This document shows positions 15,027 through 52,151 of a stretch of DNA of 52,414 nt, one piece after another. The notes beneath the pieces were generated by a model that was not told the origin of the DNA, did no database searches, and saw only the letters and a program-made list of their open reading frames with translations. The position numbers were made by a program, and so were the translations under genes. The stretch's first letter is position 1. The number at the start of each line of letters is the position of its first letter. This DNA is from a virus: IMG/VR virus record IMGVR_UViG_3300042731_007248, positions 1 through 52,414 of that record, one strand, 5' to 3'.

Positions 15027-15167
15027 ATGGTTGAAATAGAATGTACTCAATGTGGGAAACGTTATCATACATTACAATACTCGACCACGGGCAAATCAGT
15101 CTGTCCGTACTGTATGACGCTAAATAAGTTACCTCAATTCAAAAAAGAGAAAAAACACAATGAGTAG
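15027..15167 (+). CDS. zinc-ribbon microprotein (46 aa)
   Basis: CTQCGKRY at residues 6-13 and CPYC about 17 residues later form a minimal zinc ribbon; the tail is Lys-rich. Its last eight bases overlap the PAPS-reductase-family gene, suggesting translational coupling. Confidence 0.6.
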   Translation: MVEIECTQCGKRYHTLQYSTTGKSVCPYCMTLNKLPQFKKEKKHNE

Positions 15168-15903
15168 AGGCCATCAACTAAATATCTTCGGCAGAACAAA
15201 AGAAGAAGAATCAATACTATTTCTACAAAAATATGAACCTCCTGAAGGATATTTTTTAGGCTTTAGTGGTGGGAAAGATTCTGTTGTTATCAAACACTTA
15301 GCAGAAAAAGCAGGCGTTAAATTTACACCGTATTACTCTGCAACTGGGATAGATCCCCCGGAGCTGATGCAGTTTATCCGCGACTATCACCAGGATGTGA
15401 TCTGGAAGCGGCCCGCGCTAAATTTTTGGGCTTTGATTATGAAGAAGGGCTTCCCTCCGACGATTTGGAGACGCTATTGTTGCGATGACCTAAAAAAGAA
15501 GCCGACATTAAAAATTGCATTGAAGCGCCGAATAATGGGTATCAGATCCGAAGAATCTAGCCGTAGGGCTAATCGGCCAAATCCAAGTTATATTAAAGCG
15601 CATAAATACTGGATGGATAAGCCAATTTTCGATTGGCAGGAATGGGAAGTGTGGGATTATATTGAACGCAATGAACTTTCATATTGCTCGCTTTATGATG
15701 AAGGATTCAGCCGCATCGGTTGTGTTATCTGCCCGTTTTTATGCGGTAAAAATACAAAGAGAGTAATGAAACATAAAGAGCGGTGGCCTAAACATTACGC
15801 AATGTTTGAAAAAGTAATGCATCGGCTGTTCAAGCAGCACAAGGAAAGACTCAGAGAAAAAAGTGCCGAGGAGCTTATTCAAAATTGGTATCGAGGAAAT
15901 TAA
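15160..15903 (+). CDS. PAPS-reductase-family protein with Fe-S-type cysteines
   Basis: A 247-residue member of the CysH/DndC-like ATP-pyrophosphatase group. SGGKDS (36-41) is the PP-loop. CC at 107-108 (RRYCCDD) plus C188-x2-C191 (CVIC) match the pattern that holds a 4Fe-4S cluster in APS reductases and DndC, and a further Cys lies at 195. Such genes are common in phages, with roles proposed in sulfur metabolism or thio-modification of nucleic acids. No other Dnd or cysteine-synthesis gene is visible, so the substrate is unknown. Confidence 0.75.
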   Translation: MSRGHQLNIFGRTKEEESILFLQKYEPPEGYFLGFSGGKDSVVIKHLAEKAGVKFTPYYSATGIDPPELMQFIRDYHQDVIWKRPALNFWALIMKKGFPPTIWRRYCCDDLKKKPTLKIALKRRIMGIRSEESSRRANRPNPSYIKAHKYWMDKPIFDWQEWEVWDYIERNELSYCSLYDEGFSRIGCVICPFLCGKNTKRVMKHKERWPKHYAMFEKVMHRLFKQHKERLREKSAEELIQNWYRGN

Positions 15904-38919: not shown

Positions 38920-40806
38920 CTAAGCCCCCTCTTGCGCATTTTCCTGCTGACCCATACCAGACTGCGCTTCCTGAGCTTGCATCTCACCAGCGGCCTGTTG
39001 CGCAACCAATTCGGCCATCATCTGTTGAGCCTGAGCCGCAGCTTCGTCCAGTTTGCCCATCTGGTCAGCCACATCCAACATAAACGTCTTCGGATCTCGC
39101 ACACTGTCATAAGTTCTGAGAGTCCGCTCAAACATCTCATTTGAAGCATGGACAGCCTTTGACAGAATCTCTCTAATCGCCGGTGGCGTTGTCGGCGCCG
39201 CAGCAGCATTCGCCAACTGGATAATCCGATCCTGATAAGCAGCAGCAATTTGCGCAAGTGTCGCTGCATCTTGCCGGTCAGCCATCGCATTTCTGTATGC
39301 ACTTGAAGCGGTCAACTCAATATCCATCATTCTGGCAAAATGGTCATTTTCCATGACATCAATTACAAAATCGCCGTCCTCCCGCCCAAGCATCTCATAA
39401 ATAGCGAGCATCGCCTTTTGATCTTTCGCCAACACTCTTTCCTGATACCGGTAAACACACTGCTTGATCGCCCCTGCAATTGCAAACCGCATACTATCAA
39501 AAGCAGGTGTAAACCGCTTATTCACCTGCTGCAACATTGACATGGTGGTAACACCAGGCGTCCTATTGGGAACATTACCCGGGCTGATAGCATCGTTAAT
39601 CCCAACCCTATCATTGGCAATTTTCATCAATGCCCCTTGCTCCTGGTAAATGCTCGGCGCAAGATCTGCCATTGGAATTGCAAAAATACTATCCTTACTG
39701 GGAAGTCCATTCAAATAACCACCAGGCATAATAGGAAGGTCATCAGGCGCGGTCCCATCTCCGAACCACATCCTGGAATTTACAAGAAGCATATTGAGCG
39801 TGGCGTAATTGTGGATATCGGTCAGTTTTTCCTCAAAAGGCTGCATCATCTCCATGACACCCAAACCAAAGAACATATGCGCCCTTTGCTGATAGACCAT
39901 CTTCTCAACCGGCCGCCTATCCATGGGATTGTACGTGATATGCCCAATGGCGTTGCCTGAATGATTATAAATAACCATCAAGTCTTCATCAAAGCCATCA
40001 TCATCAATATCAAAATAAATAAATAATAATTGAACGTCATAAGTGTCACCTTTATAAGTAGGCCCTTCCATGTGCTGCCCCAAGATTTCTCTTGTAGTCC
40101 TAACCTGATTTCTTGCTCCCAACGGATGAAATTCAGTAATATCCAATCCATTGGCCTTGGCCAGAGAATTCAATTCAGTCTCTGTGTACCGAAAATTAAA
40201 TCCAAATAACCGCATTTCATTAATATCGCCTGTAGTACCGGAAGGAACAATTACATCTTCGGGAGCGATCGCCCTAATCTTCGGACCCCTTGACACCACC
40301 TTTGCCGTTTTCGTCTTATAAACCCTTTCAACCCAAGGAACATATAAAACGCCGGTACCTAACTGAGCGTCATTTAAAATTGCCGTCTCAGCAGCCTCCC
40401 TGAACCCGACATCATCACTTTCAGCCAGCTTATTACAAAATCTTTGCATGGCTTTGGCCTTCTCAACCAAATCCGGCATATTATTGGCTTTTGAAGAAGG
40501 ACTCACTGTCAAAACCGGTTTTACCGAAAAAATAGTATCAATCGCCTGTGCTGTAATCGTATCACAAGCCGTTGCCCCAATCGGCACTTCCACATTTGGC
40601 GCATTCTCTACCGGAACATTCCTGGTCTTTCTTTCAGGGACCGCTTCATACATTGAAAGCAGTCTTGCCCATTTTTGCTCCAAAGGCTTCATAGCGGCCA
40701 TCGCATCGGTTAGATTCAAATCAATCCAATCCTTTAAAGCCTTAAATCTCTCTTCATCTATATCCAAAGTCGTCTTATGGCTGTAACGATCCAATGTCTT
40801 AGGCAT
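38920..40806 (-). CDS. portal protein (628 aa)
   Basis: Size and layout match podovirus portals: N-terminal helical wing (LLSMYEAVPERKTRNVPVENAPNVEVP-type start), a DIDDDGFDEDLMVIYN segment typical of these portals, a central clip/stem region (FFGLGVMEMMQPFEEKLTDIHNY), and a long Gln/Ala-rich C-terminal barrel (AQAQQMMAELVAQQ). It forms the ring at the packaging vertex. ATG 40806 overlaps the stop of the fibre gene (TAATG). Confidence 0.75.
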   Translation of the reverse strand: MPKTLDRYSHKTTLDIDEERFKALKDWIDLNLTDAMAAMKPLEQKWARLLSMYEAVPERKTRNVPVENAPNVEVPIGATACDTITAQAIDTIFSVKPVLTVSPSSKANNMPDLVEKAKAMQRFCNKLAESDDVGFREAAETAILNDAQLGTGVLYVPWVERVYKTKTAKVVSRGPKIRAIAPEDVIVPSGTTGDINEMRLFGFNFRYTETELNSLAKANGLDITEFHPLGARNQVRTTREILGQHMEGPTYKGDTYDVQLLFIYFDIDDDGFDEDLMVIYNHSGNAIGHITYNPMDRRPVEKMVYQQRAHMFFGLGVMEMMQPFEEKLTDIHNYATLNMLLVNSRMWFGDGTAPDDLPIMPGGYLNGLPSKDSIFAIPMADLAPSIYQEQGALMKIANDRVGINDAISPGNVPNRTPGVTTMSMLQQVNKRFTPAFDSMRFAIAGAIKQCVYRYQERVLAKDQKAMLAIYEMLGREDGDFVIDVMENDHFARMMDIELTASSAYRNAMADRQDAATLAQIAAAYQDRIIQLANAAAAPTTPPAIREILSKAVHASNEMFERTLRTYDSVRDPKTFMLDVADQMGKLDEAAAQAQQMMAELVAQQAAGEMQAQEAQSGMGQQENAQEGA

Positions 40807-48943: not shown

Positions 48944-49594
48944 CTAATTTAGTTGAATTCTGTTTTTGACCCTATATTCCTCTAACCGTCTCTCCATCTC
49001 ATTGTGAGGACAACCCGTCTCCCTTAAATACCTTGCCAACTTCTCCAAACCCACATCCCTACCTTTTCTCTTCGGCATCTTGGGAGCCAACTCAAACATA
49101 CTCACCAAACTATCAATCAGATCCACCGTCGCCGCAGTCGGGAAACCCCTAATCTCCTGAGCCAAATCATCCCACTTATTCTGGAGAAACAAACGACCCT
49201 CTTTCATAACCGGATCTAATCCAGTCCTGATCCTGAACGGCTTCTTAACCTTCGTAGGCTGATGTACCGGAAAAAAATTGACCTTACCGAGCAACCGCTT
49301 CCCCTCATCAATCACCAACTGGCCGAACAAAATCTGCATCCCATTCGCCTCAAGTCCGAAAACCTTCGGCCTGAAACGTTCATGAGCGGCCAGAATCTTA
49401 TCCTTAAAATCAACCGTACTGATCCTGCCCGCCCACGCTTGCAAAATAAACCACCTGTCCAACCAATCCCTTGCCCCGACCAGTACCGTTTGCCTACACG
49501 TCCTTCTGCCGATCTTGGCATCAGCCCCCGCAGCCAAGTCAGCAAACGCATAAACCTCACACTGATCCAATGGTATGGCAATCTGTTCAGGCAC
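48944..49594 (-). CDS. large terminase, nuclease part (split gene)
   Basis: A 216-residue RNase H-like nuclease domain of a phage large terminase. Catalytic acids read as D19 (AFADLAAG), E82 (GLEANG) and D158 or D161 (VDLIDSL). GTG 49594 follows AAGAGGATTGGTTAG. The matching ATPase is a separate gene at 50290, three small genes upstream. Terminase nuclease and ATPase are normally one chain, so these two must work together in trans or the gene has been split at its domain linker. Confidence 0.8.
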   Translation of the reverse strand: MPEQIAIPLDQCEVYAFADLAAGADAKIGRRTCRQTVLVGARDWLDRWFILQAWAGRISTVDFKDKILAAHERFRPKVFGLEANGMQILFGQLVIDEGKRLLGKVNFFPVHQPTKVKKPFRIRTGLDPVMKEGRLFLQNKWDDLAQEIRGFPTAATVDLIDSLVSMFELAPKMPKRKGRDVGLEKLARYLRETGCPHNEMERRLEEYRVKNRIQLN

Positions 49595-49798
49595 CTAACC
49601 AATCCTCTTTATCAATATAGCGGCATACTCTTTCATAACTCTAAGCTGATCCTTCAAAAGTCGAAGATCCTGCTGAAGAACCTCATTCTTACCTTCGACC
49701 TCAAAATACATAATCGCCCGATCAAGCCGCAGCATCTTCTTTTGCAAATCAGCCCATTCGTCAATTAGTCTTTCCCTGAAATCTTCTGTAATTTTCAT
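49595..49798 (-). CDS. small helical protein inside the terminase split (67 aa)
   Basis: ATG 49798 directly follows a TAGGGGGC junction. Coiled-coil-like (RERLIDEWADLQKKMLRLDRA), with a second helix at the end. A common type of small phage protein of unknown role. It ends one codon before the nuclease start. Confidence 0.6.
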   Translation of the reverse strand: MKITEDFRERLIDEWADLQKKMLRLDRAIMYFEVEGKNEVLQQDLRLLKDQLRVMKEYAAILIKRIG

Positions 49799-49803
49799 GC
49801 CCC

Positions 49804-50040
49804 CTACCAATCAACTAACGGTGTAAAATTGCTACGACGGCAATAATCCAAATGATCAGCCCGAGTCCAAGGCTTTTTATGGTACTCCCAACGCATCTTT
49901 TTACGATTCAAGTCATAGTGATAACAAAAATAATAAAAAGCCGTATTTGTTCGCCAATGCAGCACCGGACCCCGCCACCACTGCAACCCAACCTTATACC
50001 GCTTAATGTAAGTGCCTTCTTTCCTATGATAAAAAAACAT
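49804..50040 (-). CDS. small aromatic basic protein inside the terminase split (78 aa)
   Basis: Starts after TAGGGGCT. Extremely rich in Tyr, Trp, His and Arg (KVGLQWWRGPVLHWR), unlike its neighbours. Its TAG stop forms the next TAGGGGGC junction. No family recognised. Confidence 0.55.
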   Translation of the reverse strand: MFFYHRKEGTYIKRYKVGLQWWRGPVLHWRTNTAFYYFCYHYDLNRKKMRWEYHKKPWTRADHLDYCRRSNFTPLVDW

Positions 50041-50045
50041 AGCCC

Positions 50046-50279
50046 CTACCTGCCCGGATCGTCTGTACCGTCAATTTTGTCCAACATAGCCATGATATAC
50101 GGCCGGATATAATCAATCAGCCCCGGCAAAAGAGCGCCCAAACCCTTACTTACCTTGGGAGCCAGCAGAATCATCAAGGCAAATGCCGCCTCTACCAACA
50201 TCACAGCGCCTTCTTCAGCGATATCCAACCCATACAACTTAGCCGTAGTGACGATCTCTTCCTTTACACCTTTGTCCAT
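50046..50279 (-). CDS. membrane-associated protein inside the terminase split (77 aa)
   Basis: ATG follows TAGGGGGTTTAAA, whose TAG is the stop of the terminase ATPase. A hydrophobic helix (VMLVEAAFALMILLA, about 27-41) and a second amphipathic segment could span or sit on the membrane; holin-like in size, but evidence is thin. Confidence 0.55.
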   Translation of the reverse strand: MDKGVKEEIVTTAKLYGLDIAEEGAVMLVEAAFALMILLAPKVSKGLGALLPGLIDYIRPYIMAMLDKIDGTDDPGR

Positions 50280-50289
50280 TTTAAACCCC

Positions 50290-51621
50290 CTAATGTCTTT
50301 TCAATCTAAGATATTCGTGCCTATTCAACAAAGCATTCAAATTATTAGGCGTCAAATACCTCATAATGCGTCCCCTGTGGTCAACCTTCCCTGAACTCTC
50401 AAGCATCGTATGGTGCTCATCGAATTTCTTATCCAAAAAATCATCCGCTTCAGTGCTTTCAAACAATATATTGTCATTAATGAACTTGAAATCCCTCGCA
50501 TCATCCAAATTGAAATCCGTTAATGTCGGGTCATCCGCACTATTCAAATACAGCAAATAAAACATGTGCTTATGATAATCCATCAACTCTTTGATGCTCT
50601 GCTCAGTATGTTTTTCAGGCCACAGAATCTCACCATTATTGATAATTCTGTGAAACTTTGGATCAATCAATTCAACCGTGTAATCATTATCTATTATCTC
50701 ACTGTACAAATCATATACCGCCCACCTCGTACCGATAATCCACTCCAGACTCTGCAACCCGCTCTCAGTCTCATAACTATCCATCAAGGCCCTACTCGCT
50801 TTGTGCGCCTCAATCGCCTTATCCATCACCGTGCTACTCCGGCTCGCCTCTAAACTGATCAAATCGTCCTTAATCTGACAATTCGGCCGACTGCCCGTCA
50901 CAGCACCGTCAGCCCCTTTTGCCCAAATCGTAGGATCGGGCCACTCATTCGCCCTCGGAAAGATCAACGCCCTTTGATTCCACACTTTCGCCTGTTTCTT
51001 CGGATTATCCCAACACCTGTGCGGCCACAACGCCCTGAAAAGCTGATTCTCCTCCGAAATGCTCTGAAGCACTCTCAAATTCTTTTCGGCCATATCCTGA
51101 GTTTCACCCATCAACAGAATCCGACACTCAGACCCTTCCAGACCAGGAAAATAGCAATTTCCATCAGCGGGCTGAATAATGATGTGCAGCGGCAACCCGC
51201 CACTTACTATGGCCGTCTTAGCATGCTCCCTGGGCATGAGCGTCAATTTCCTGAACGGCGGTATCTTCTGCTGAAACTCACATACCGGCTTATGCAGCTT
51301 ATTCGTCAAAAAGTGCCGATTCAGTATGGCTTTTAAAAAGAAATACAGGTTCTTCTCAGCCGTCTCCCTCAATCGCTCAATAAACTGCCCCTCTTGCGCA
51401 TCTGTCCCGGCCTGTCTCGGTGCCCCGTTCCGGTCAATTACAACTTCCCTTGTAAGATACTCAATCGGCTCAACCCTGCCCTTAGCCACCACCGATTTCC
51501 TACGCTGGGCAATCTCAACCTGACTTTTTTGGAAGGCGCTTACTCGCTGGGCAAGACTTTCAGCGCCTTTCGACGACTCCTTTTCAGAAGCCGCTATATG
51601 GGTGTCATCGGCCGGAGGCAT
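50290..51621 (-). CDS. large terminase, ATPase part (split gene)
   Basis: A 443-residue packaging ATPase. Walker A is PREHAKT (130-136), Walker B is CQIKDDLIS (248-256), and the coupling segment is IIGTRW (295-300). It ends about where the linker to the nuclease should begin, at a TAG that opens a TAGGGGG junction. The nuclease is the separate gene at 48944. ATG 51621 follows GGGAGTTAGCGGT; the longer frame would overlap the small subunit. It powers DNA packaging through the portal. Confidence 0.85.
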   Translation of the reverse strand: MPPADDTHIAASEKESSKGAESLAQRVSAFQKSQVEIAQRRKSVVAKGRVEPIEYLTREVVIDRNGAPRQAGTDAQEGQFIERLRETAEKNLYFFLKAILNRHFLTNKLHKPVCEFQQKIPPFRKLTLMPREHAKTAIVSGGLPLHIIIQPADGNCYFPGLEGSECRILLMGETQDMAEKNLRVLQSISEENQLFRALWPHRCWDNPKKQAKVWNQRALIFPRANEWPDPTIWAKGADGAVTGSRPNCQIKDDLISLEASRSSTVMDKAIEAHKASRALMDSYETESGLQSLEWIIGTRWAVYDLYSEIIDNDYTVELIDPKFHRIINNGEILWPEKHTEQSIKELMDYHKHMFYLLYLNSADDPTLTDFNLDDARDFKFINDNILFESTEADDFLDKKFDEHHTMLESSGKVDHRGRIMRYLTPNNLNALLNRHEYLRLKRH

Positions 51622-51625
51622 ACCG

Positions 51626-52132
51626 CTAACTCCCACACTCTTCCAGCAGATCAAACTCCATCCCAATCTCACGAGCCGTGTCTTTGATCGTCTGAACTTG
51701 CTGGTAAGGAATATTTATAACAATATTAGGCATCTGAATGTCCTTCTCCGTTTGTCTCTTCGCATTCGGCGCGTAATCCATAATCATCTGCGTGGCCTTC
51801 AGCCGATTCCCCGCCGTCTCCCCTGAATCATCCCTGATCGCAATCAAAGTATGCAGATTATTGAGAATCTCACCGTTGAACCGCTCCCCGATATCAGCAA
51901 CACCCATTTCGGCAACCGCCTGCGCAGCCTGCTGCTCGATCCGCTGCCGGTGCTCAATCAGTTGCACGAAATCTTCCCGTTCATACAGATCCGCAATCCA
52001 CTCAATCGGCCTCTTATACCTGATTGCAATCTCATCCAAGGTGGCTCCCGGATTCAGCCCAATCCATTCTGCCGCCCTGATTTCCACCTCTGACAGTGGC
52101 TTCTTAAATACATTTTCTGAAAATATGCCCAT
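51626..52132 (-). CDS. small terminase-like protein (168 aa)
   Basis: First gene of the leftward arm and directly before the large-terminase ATPase. An N-terminal helix-turn-helix-like part (GLNPGATLDEIAIRYKRPIEWI) is followed by a long helical oligomerisation region, as in small terminases that bind the packaging site. ATG 52132 follows TAGGAGTGCGC. Confidence 0.65.
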   Translation of the reverse strand: MGIFSENVFKKPLSEVEIRAAEWIGLNPGATLDEIAIRYKRPIEWIADLYEREDFVQLIEHRQRIEQQAAQAVAEMGVADIGERFNGEILNNLHTLIAIRDDSGETAGNRLKATQMIMDYAPNAKRQTEKDIQMPNIVINIPYQQVQTIKDTAREIGMEFDLLEECGS

Positions 52133-52151
52133 GCGCACTCCTATTTTACTA

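Follow-up and report, generated by a model that had tools for sequence, protein, structure and literature searches.

The large terminase subunit (TerL) is normally a single two-domain protein that combines an ATPase with a nuclease, and models assign the TerL hinge the role of power transmission. The locus described here raises the question of whether both domains can be encoded by separate genes, how such an arrangement arose, and how the two products would still act together. The analysis concerns a virus record of 52,414 bases that consists of one metagenomic contig; this whole stretch is referred to as the window. A preliminary description had proposed that three small genes split TerL into an ATPase gene and a nuclease gene, with the cut at the domain linker and no intron or homing element at the junction. 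Transcription on the minus strand runs from a probable small terminase gene through the ATPase gene and the 77-, 78- and 67-aa genes to the nuclease gene. The features are as follows:

51626..52138, minus strand: probable small terminase subunit, from position and a helix-turn-helix-like N-terminus
50290..51621, minus strand: TerL ATPase (motor), 443 aa; ATG after GGGAG; phrog_38 positions 249-524 of 760, E 1.2e-37
50046..50279, minus strand: passenger gene for a membrane-like 77-aa protein; open reading frame after GGGGG; hydropathy maximum 2.05
49804..50040, minus strand: passenger gene for an aromatic, basic 78-aa protein of unknown function; open reading frame
49595..49798, minus strand: passenger gene for a helical 67-aa protein of a crAss001_48-related family (PF21825, unknown function); Pfam E 1.4e-12, 47.7 bits against a cut-off of 24.8
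48944..49594, minus strand: TerL nuclease, 216 aa; RNase H/RuvC-like fold; D19-E82-D161; phrog_38 positions 548-714, E 1.3e-14
38920..40806, minus strand: portal / head-tail connector; phrog_332, E 8.6e-11; downstream and transcribed in the direction of the TerL genes

A large terminase split at the domain linker

Both TerL genes match one PHROG family, phrog_38, in order, the ATPase up to profile position 524 and the nuclease from 548. Since these spans are successive and do not overlap, the genes are parts of one TerL with the break at the domain linker, and they fit successive stretches of the full-length TerL profile, as the preliminary description had suggested checking. They are also the only two phrog_38 matches in the whole record, which rules out that either gene is the decayed remnant of a complete terminase; such a duplicate would have refuted the split. 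The ATPase motifs are intact (PREHAKT, Walker A-like; IKDDLIS, Walker B plus catalytic carboxylate; IIGTRW) and the ATPase is conserved in 10 relatives. In the nuclease, D19, E82 and D161 do not vary among 12 core sequences and phage ctLwi270. Modelled with AlphaFold (pLDDT 82), the nuclease retrieved in Foldseek the nuclease domain of RB49 gp17 (E 3e-6), T4 gp17, the PhiV-1 terminase and the G20c nuclease.

The genomic neighbourhood is that of a TerL, with the portal-type phrog_332 gene downstream and a small-terminase-like gene upstream, the latter by position only. The product of 51626..52138 has no Pfam or PHROG family match and is probably the small terminase subunit, as judged from its position and helix-turn-helix-like N-terminus; one relative (L001) carries a gene of comparable make-up upstream of its ATPase. 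A purine-rich ribosome site lies ahead of both TerL genes and of two or more of the genes in between. The 67-aa gene starts with ATG at 49798, preceded by GGTAGGGGG, and the GTG start of the nuclease abuts the stop of this gene, with AGAGG about 10 nt upstream. Elsewhere in the window, a PAPS reductase-domain gene (15160-15903; PF01507, E 1.8e-28) lies on the strand opposite to the structural genes.

A TerL made as one polypeptide is found neither in the window, nor in any relative with both parts readable, nor in ctLwi270. The window TerL is hence confirmed as genuinely split at the linker between its domains. The junction contains neither an intron nor a homing gene, and there Rfam returned nothing and inspection revealed no intein; on these points the preliminary description was right.

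Relatives, inserted genes and a probable single fission

Alignment-based searches recovered many IMG/VR contigs and two contigs from bacterial MAGs, one of candidate division TA06 (L036) and one of Dehalococcoidia (L037). Membership in these MAGs is only a weak hint to the host, as the binning of phage contigs can be wrong. Each of the 14 further distinct lineages that are readable in both parts has a split TerL, as does ctLwi270; the undivided gene that the preliminary description had advised looking for occurs in none of them. The recurrence of the split in independently assembled contigs of 41-65% identity cannot be attributed to chance or assembly error.

What lies between the two genes varies greatly. 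Counted from the ATPase stop, the open frame of the nuclease is reached after 695 nt in the window, 257-264 nt in L020 and L009, 419 nt in L012, 483 nt in L016, 636 nt in L019, 761 nt in L018, 1085 nt in L025 and 2056 nt in L002. The genes are 17-33 nt apart in L014/L015 and L013, and in L010/L011 the nuclease ATG even lies upstream of the ATPase stop. Insert contents are mostly non-homologous across the relatives. The window, L009 and L020 carry similar membrane-like proteins, L012 a lipoprotein-like and a membrane-like protein, L029 a small hydrophobic protein (recognized by eye from the sequence), and L002 an exonuclease together with several small membrane or lipoprotein-like proteins. In L025, the insert encodes a GTA-type 3TM holin (PF11351, E 3.9e-12; L025:1823-2233). 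Homologues of the 77-aa protein, by inspection, occupy the equivalent place in L009 (79 aa) and L020 (89 aa), and its match to Holin_LLH is weak and under the cut-off (E 0.15). No homologues of the 77- and 78-aa proteins were found among annotated phages, and the 78-aa protein has no Pfam or PHROG match.

Because the same split occurs in relatives with no insert or with unrelated inserts, the inserted genes are later passengers and not its cause. The three small genes of the preliminary description do lie between the TerL parts, but they did not split them. The split is a common trait, while the inserts turn over. The L025 holin supports the view that lysis genes find a place in the gap; the lysis function is inferred, with this one clear holin-family match.

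In order to place the split in a phylogenetic context, fused TerLs were used as comparators, namely eight phage TerLs among the ATPase matches and others among the nuclease matches of ctLwi270 and ANMV-1, all of them single genes or open frames of 429-570 aa. In the maximum-likelihood ATPase tree, a branch with 97/96 support sets apart the 14 split sequences, ctLwi270 among them, and one change of state is enough to account for the split. The fused TerLs of Zobellviridae, vir526, ANMV-1 and others fall outside the split clade, which indicates one old fission. The ctLwi270 ATPase is the nearest outside the core clade. Given the long branches of the outgroup and a nuclease tree in which ctLwi270 is not resolved with the core clade, a single fission is well supported for the core clade and likely, though not certain, to extend to ctLwi270, which could alternatively have split independently or had its nuclease replaced. 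The distances of ATPase and nuclease are strongly correlated (Mantel r 0.90, 0 of 5000 permutations), so the pair has been inherited together. Between the L010 and L011 ATPases, dN is 0.012 and dS 0.25; in more divergent pairs synonymous sites are saturated, and differences in both genes fall mostly in third positions. The ATPase is under purifying selection.

Homing elements visit this lineage, yet none defines the boundary between ATPase and nuclease in the window. Large in-frame insertions, probably inteins, are present in the ATPases of L018 (L018:6533-9193, about 340 aa at IIG|TRW), L019 (L019:165-3923, at the Walker A-like site and IIG|TRW) and ctLwi270 (L008:4888-6543, after YQFA, the insertion having a LAGLIDADG-like motif as well as a terminal N|C). 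Within this lineage, insertions have repeatedly targeted terminase motif sites. In the Dehalococcoidia MAG contig, an endonuclease VII-family gene (L037:9112-9770; PF02945, E 1.8e-20) directly precedes the codon for the catalytic Asp in the nuclease gene; SYGRYA closes the frame upstream of it and LDPAGG opens the one downstream. This suggests an intron-like insertion in the nuclease gene, for which no Rfam intron match was obtained.

Proposed reassembly of the halves and alternative explanations

We consider it highly probable that the locus encodes a two-subunit TerL, which arose by one fission at the linker, whose halves are co-inherited as separate genes and which likely reassembles non-covalently on the portal; data on expression, interaction and packaging are not available. 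An ancestral fused TerL would have undergone gene fission between its ATPase and nuclease, and the halves would then have been passed on together as separately initiated genes on the same strand. The retention of both intact parts over large divergence makes reassembly in trans on the portal the most economical reading. In the mechanism that we infer as most likely, the ATPase ring would pump DNA, and the RNase H-fold nuclease would bind this ring, probably via the ATPase tail and/or its own helical C-terminus, and cut concatemers, so that packaging begins and ends. The broken junction may have become a tolerant site in the late operon, where small genes, often of membrane or lysis type, come and go.

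Candidate contacts are seen at the C-termini of both proteins. Compared with fused TerLs, core-clade ATPases carry about 60 extra residues after the ATPase part, the middle of which is variable. A basic C-terminal motif (YLRLK, GGxRLRG and the like) is present in 17 of 17 complete core-clade ATPases and absent from the aligned fused TerLs; in the window the tail spans about residues 390-443 and ends with YLRLKRH. At the C-terminus of the nucleases there is a helical segment (A.YLR.T..P..LIE) with no counterpart in the aligned Zobellviridae TerLs. We infer, but cannot show, that the ATPase tail and/or the nuclease helical C-terminus provides the contact replacing the covalent linker. The basic tail is possibly a docking element; there are no interaction data and the ATPase model (pLDDT 38) is not usable. 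Since ctLwi270 is without the long tail, not every split TerL depends on it. We see as much reason to accept as to doubt the more specific proposal that this clade of tailed phages uses a heteromeric motor. Its nuclease, a subunit of its own, would dock to the ATPase ring via the clade-specific tail, its number, timing or regulation could differ from the fused 1:1 state, and the covalent link would not be needed for translocation.

A weaker rival to reassembly in trans, and in our judgment an unlikely one, is that the ATPase pumps alone in the manner of phi29, with a free nuclease meeting the motor only at initiation and termination. The genes are indeed separate, with up to 2 kb between them, and in phi29, packaging is achieved by a gp16 whose C-terminal domain is catalytically dead (PMC7672431). 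However, that protein retains a vestigial nuclease-fold domain that binds DNA (PMC7672431), the T4 nuclease domain bears a proposed translocation groove (PMC3012670), and the nuclease is co-inherited with the ATPase.

Joining of the two parts at the RNA or protein level is disfavoured by the absence of intron signals, the contents of the gap and the conserved ATPase end. We give very little credence to the middle genes lying within an intron, although terL genes of Jug phages contain group I introns with demonstrated splicing (PMC12363816) and an endonuclease VII-like gene interrupts the L037 nuclease gene. Rfam had no match at gathering threshold, none between 48.8 and 51.7 kb at E<=1, and none in L001, L002 and L008; the gap is tightly packed with open reading frames bearing ribosome sites, the ATPase C-terminus ahead of its stop is conserved, and the genes of L010, L014 and L013 overlap or are 17-33 nt apart, which leaves no room for an intron. 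Equally hard to credit is a fused protein made by programmed frameshift, readthrough or ribosome bypass: the open frames overlap in L010 and L014, but most members have gaps of 171-2056 nt with several stops, whole genes and varying relative frames, and no open frame crosses the gap in the window. Joining by a split intein was rejected by inspection only, the ATPase ending with YLRLKRH and the nuclease beginning with MPEQIAIPL, with neither an intein-length extension nor an HN-C/S junction. An assembly artefact, or a decayed terminase beside a complete second one, is the least credible explanation of all, for although the window is a single metagenomic contig, the split recurs across many assemblies made independently and is also present in a complete genome that is circular, the record has no further phrog_38 match, and all catalytic residues are retained.

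Comparison with known terminases

The RNase H nuclease domain has been called universal in Caudoviricetes large terminases (PMC7824862). A natural two-gene TerL was not described in the literature that we searched, which did not include most subscription papers, so that a prior mention cannot be excluded. Leads to Arthrobacter cluster AN, BME3, YungSlug, halovirus PhiH1 and Pantoea phages turned out to be unrelated on reading. TerL-based phage surveys can miss or miscount phages of this kind, as the parts resemble two broken terminases.

Fused phrog_38 TerLs (Zobellviridae, vir526, ANMV-1) share with the split form the motifs of both domains and their order and are mostly encoded directly upstream of the portal, but they differ from it in being one polypeptide without the long ATPase C-terminal tail. 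Examples are Lentibacter phage ICBM2 (511 aa), PSA11 (535 aa), vir526 (570 aa) and ANMV-1 (473 aa). In ctLwi270 (MW202554), a Manatee Spring podovirus with a circular 44.3-kb genome, TerL is likewise encoded by two genes, here separated by a gene for 62 aa, and each of the two was deposited under the name 'terminase large subunit'. ctLwi270 shares 33% (ATPase) and 21% (nuclease) identity with the window, and has a short ATPase tail and a probable ATPase intein. The terL of Jug phages is also fragmented, into 2-3 pieces (PMC12363816); there, group I introns are present and RNA reads show splicing that restores one coding region, whereas no such introns were found in the window.

The closest experimental parallel is T4 gp17, whose domains share an interface of >1000 square angstrom and which, when artificially cut at the linker, kept ATPase and nuclease activity but lost translocation (PMC3012670, PMC9958956). 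Since the cut abolishes translocation in T4, the lineage described here must have overcome that problem. The split clade offers a test in nature of whether packaging needs the halves to be joined, and a viable lineage cut at the linker makes the need for a covalent link directly testable. The cut is at the same linker as in the artificially split T4 gp17, with the difference that here the split TerL is the natural form.
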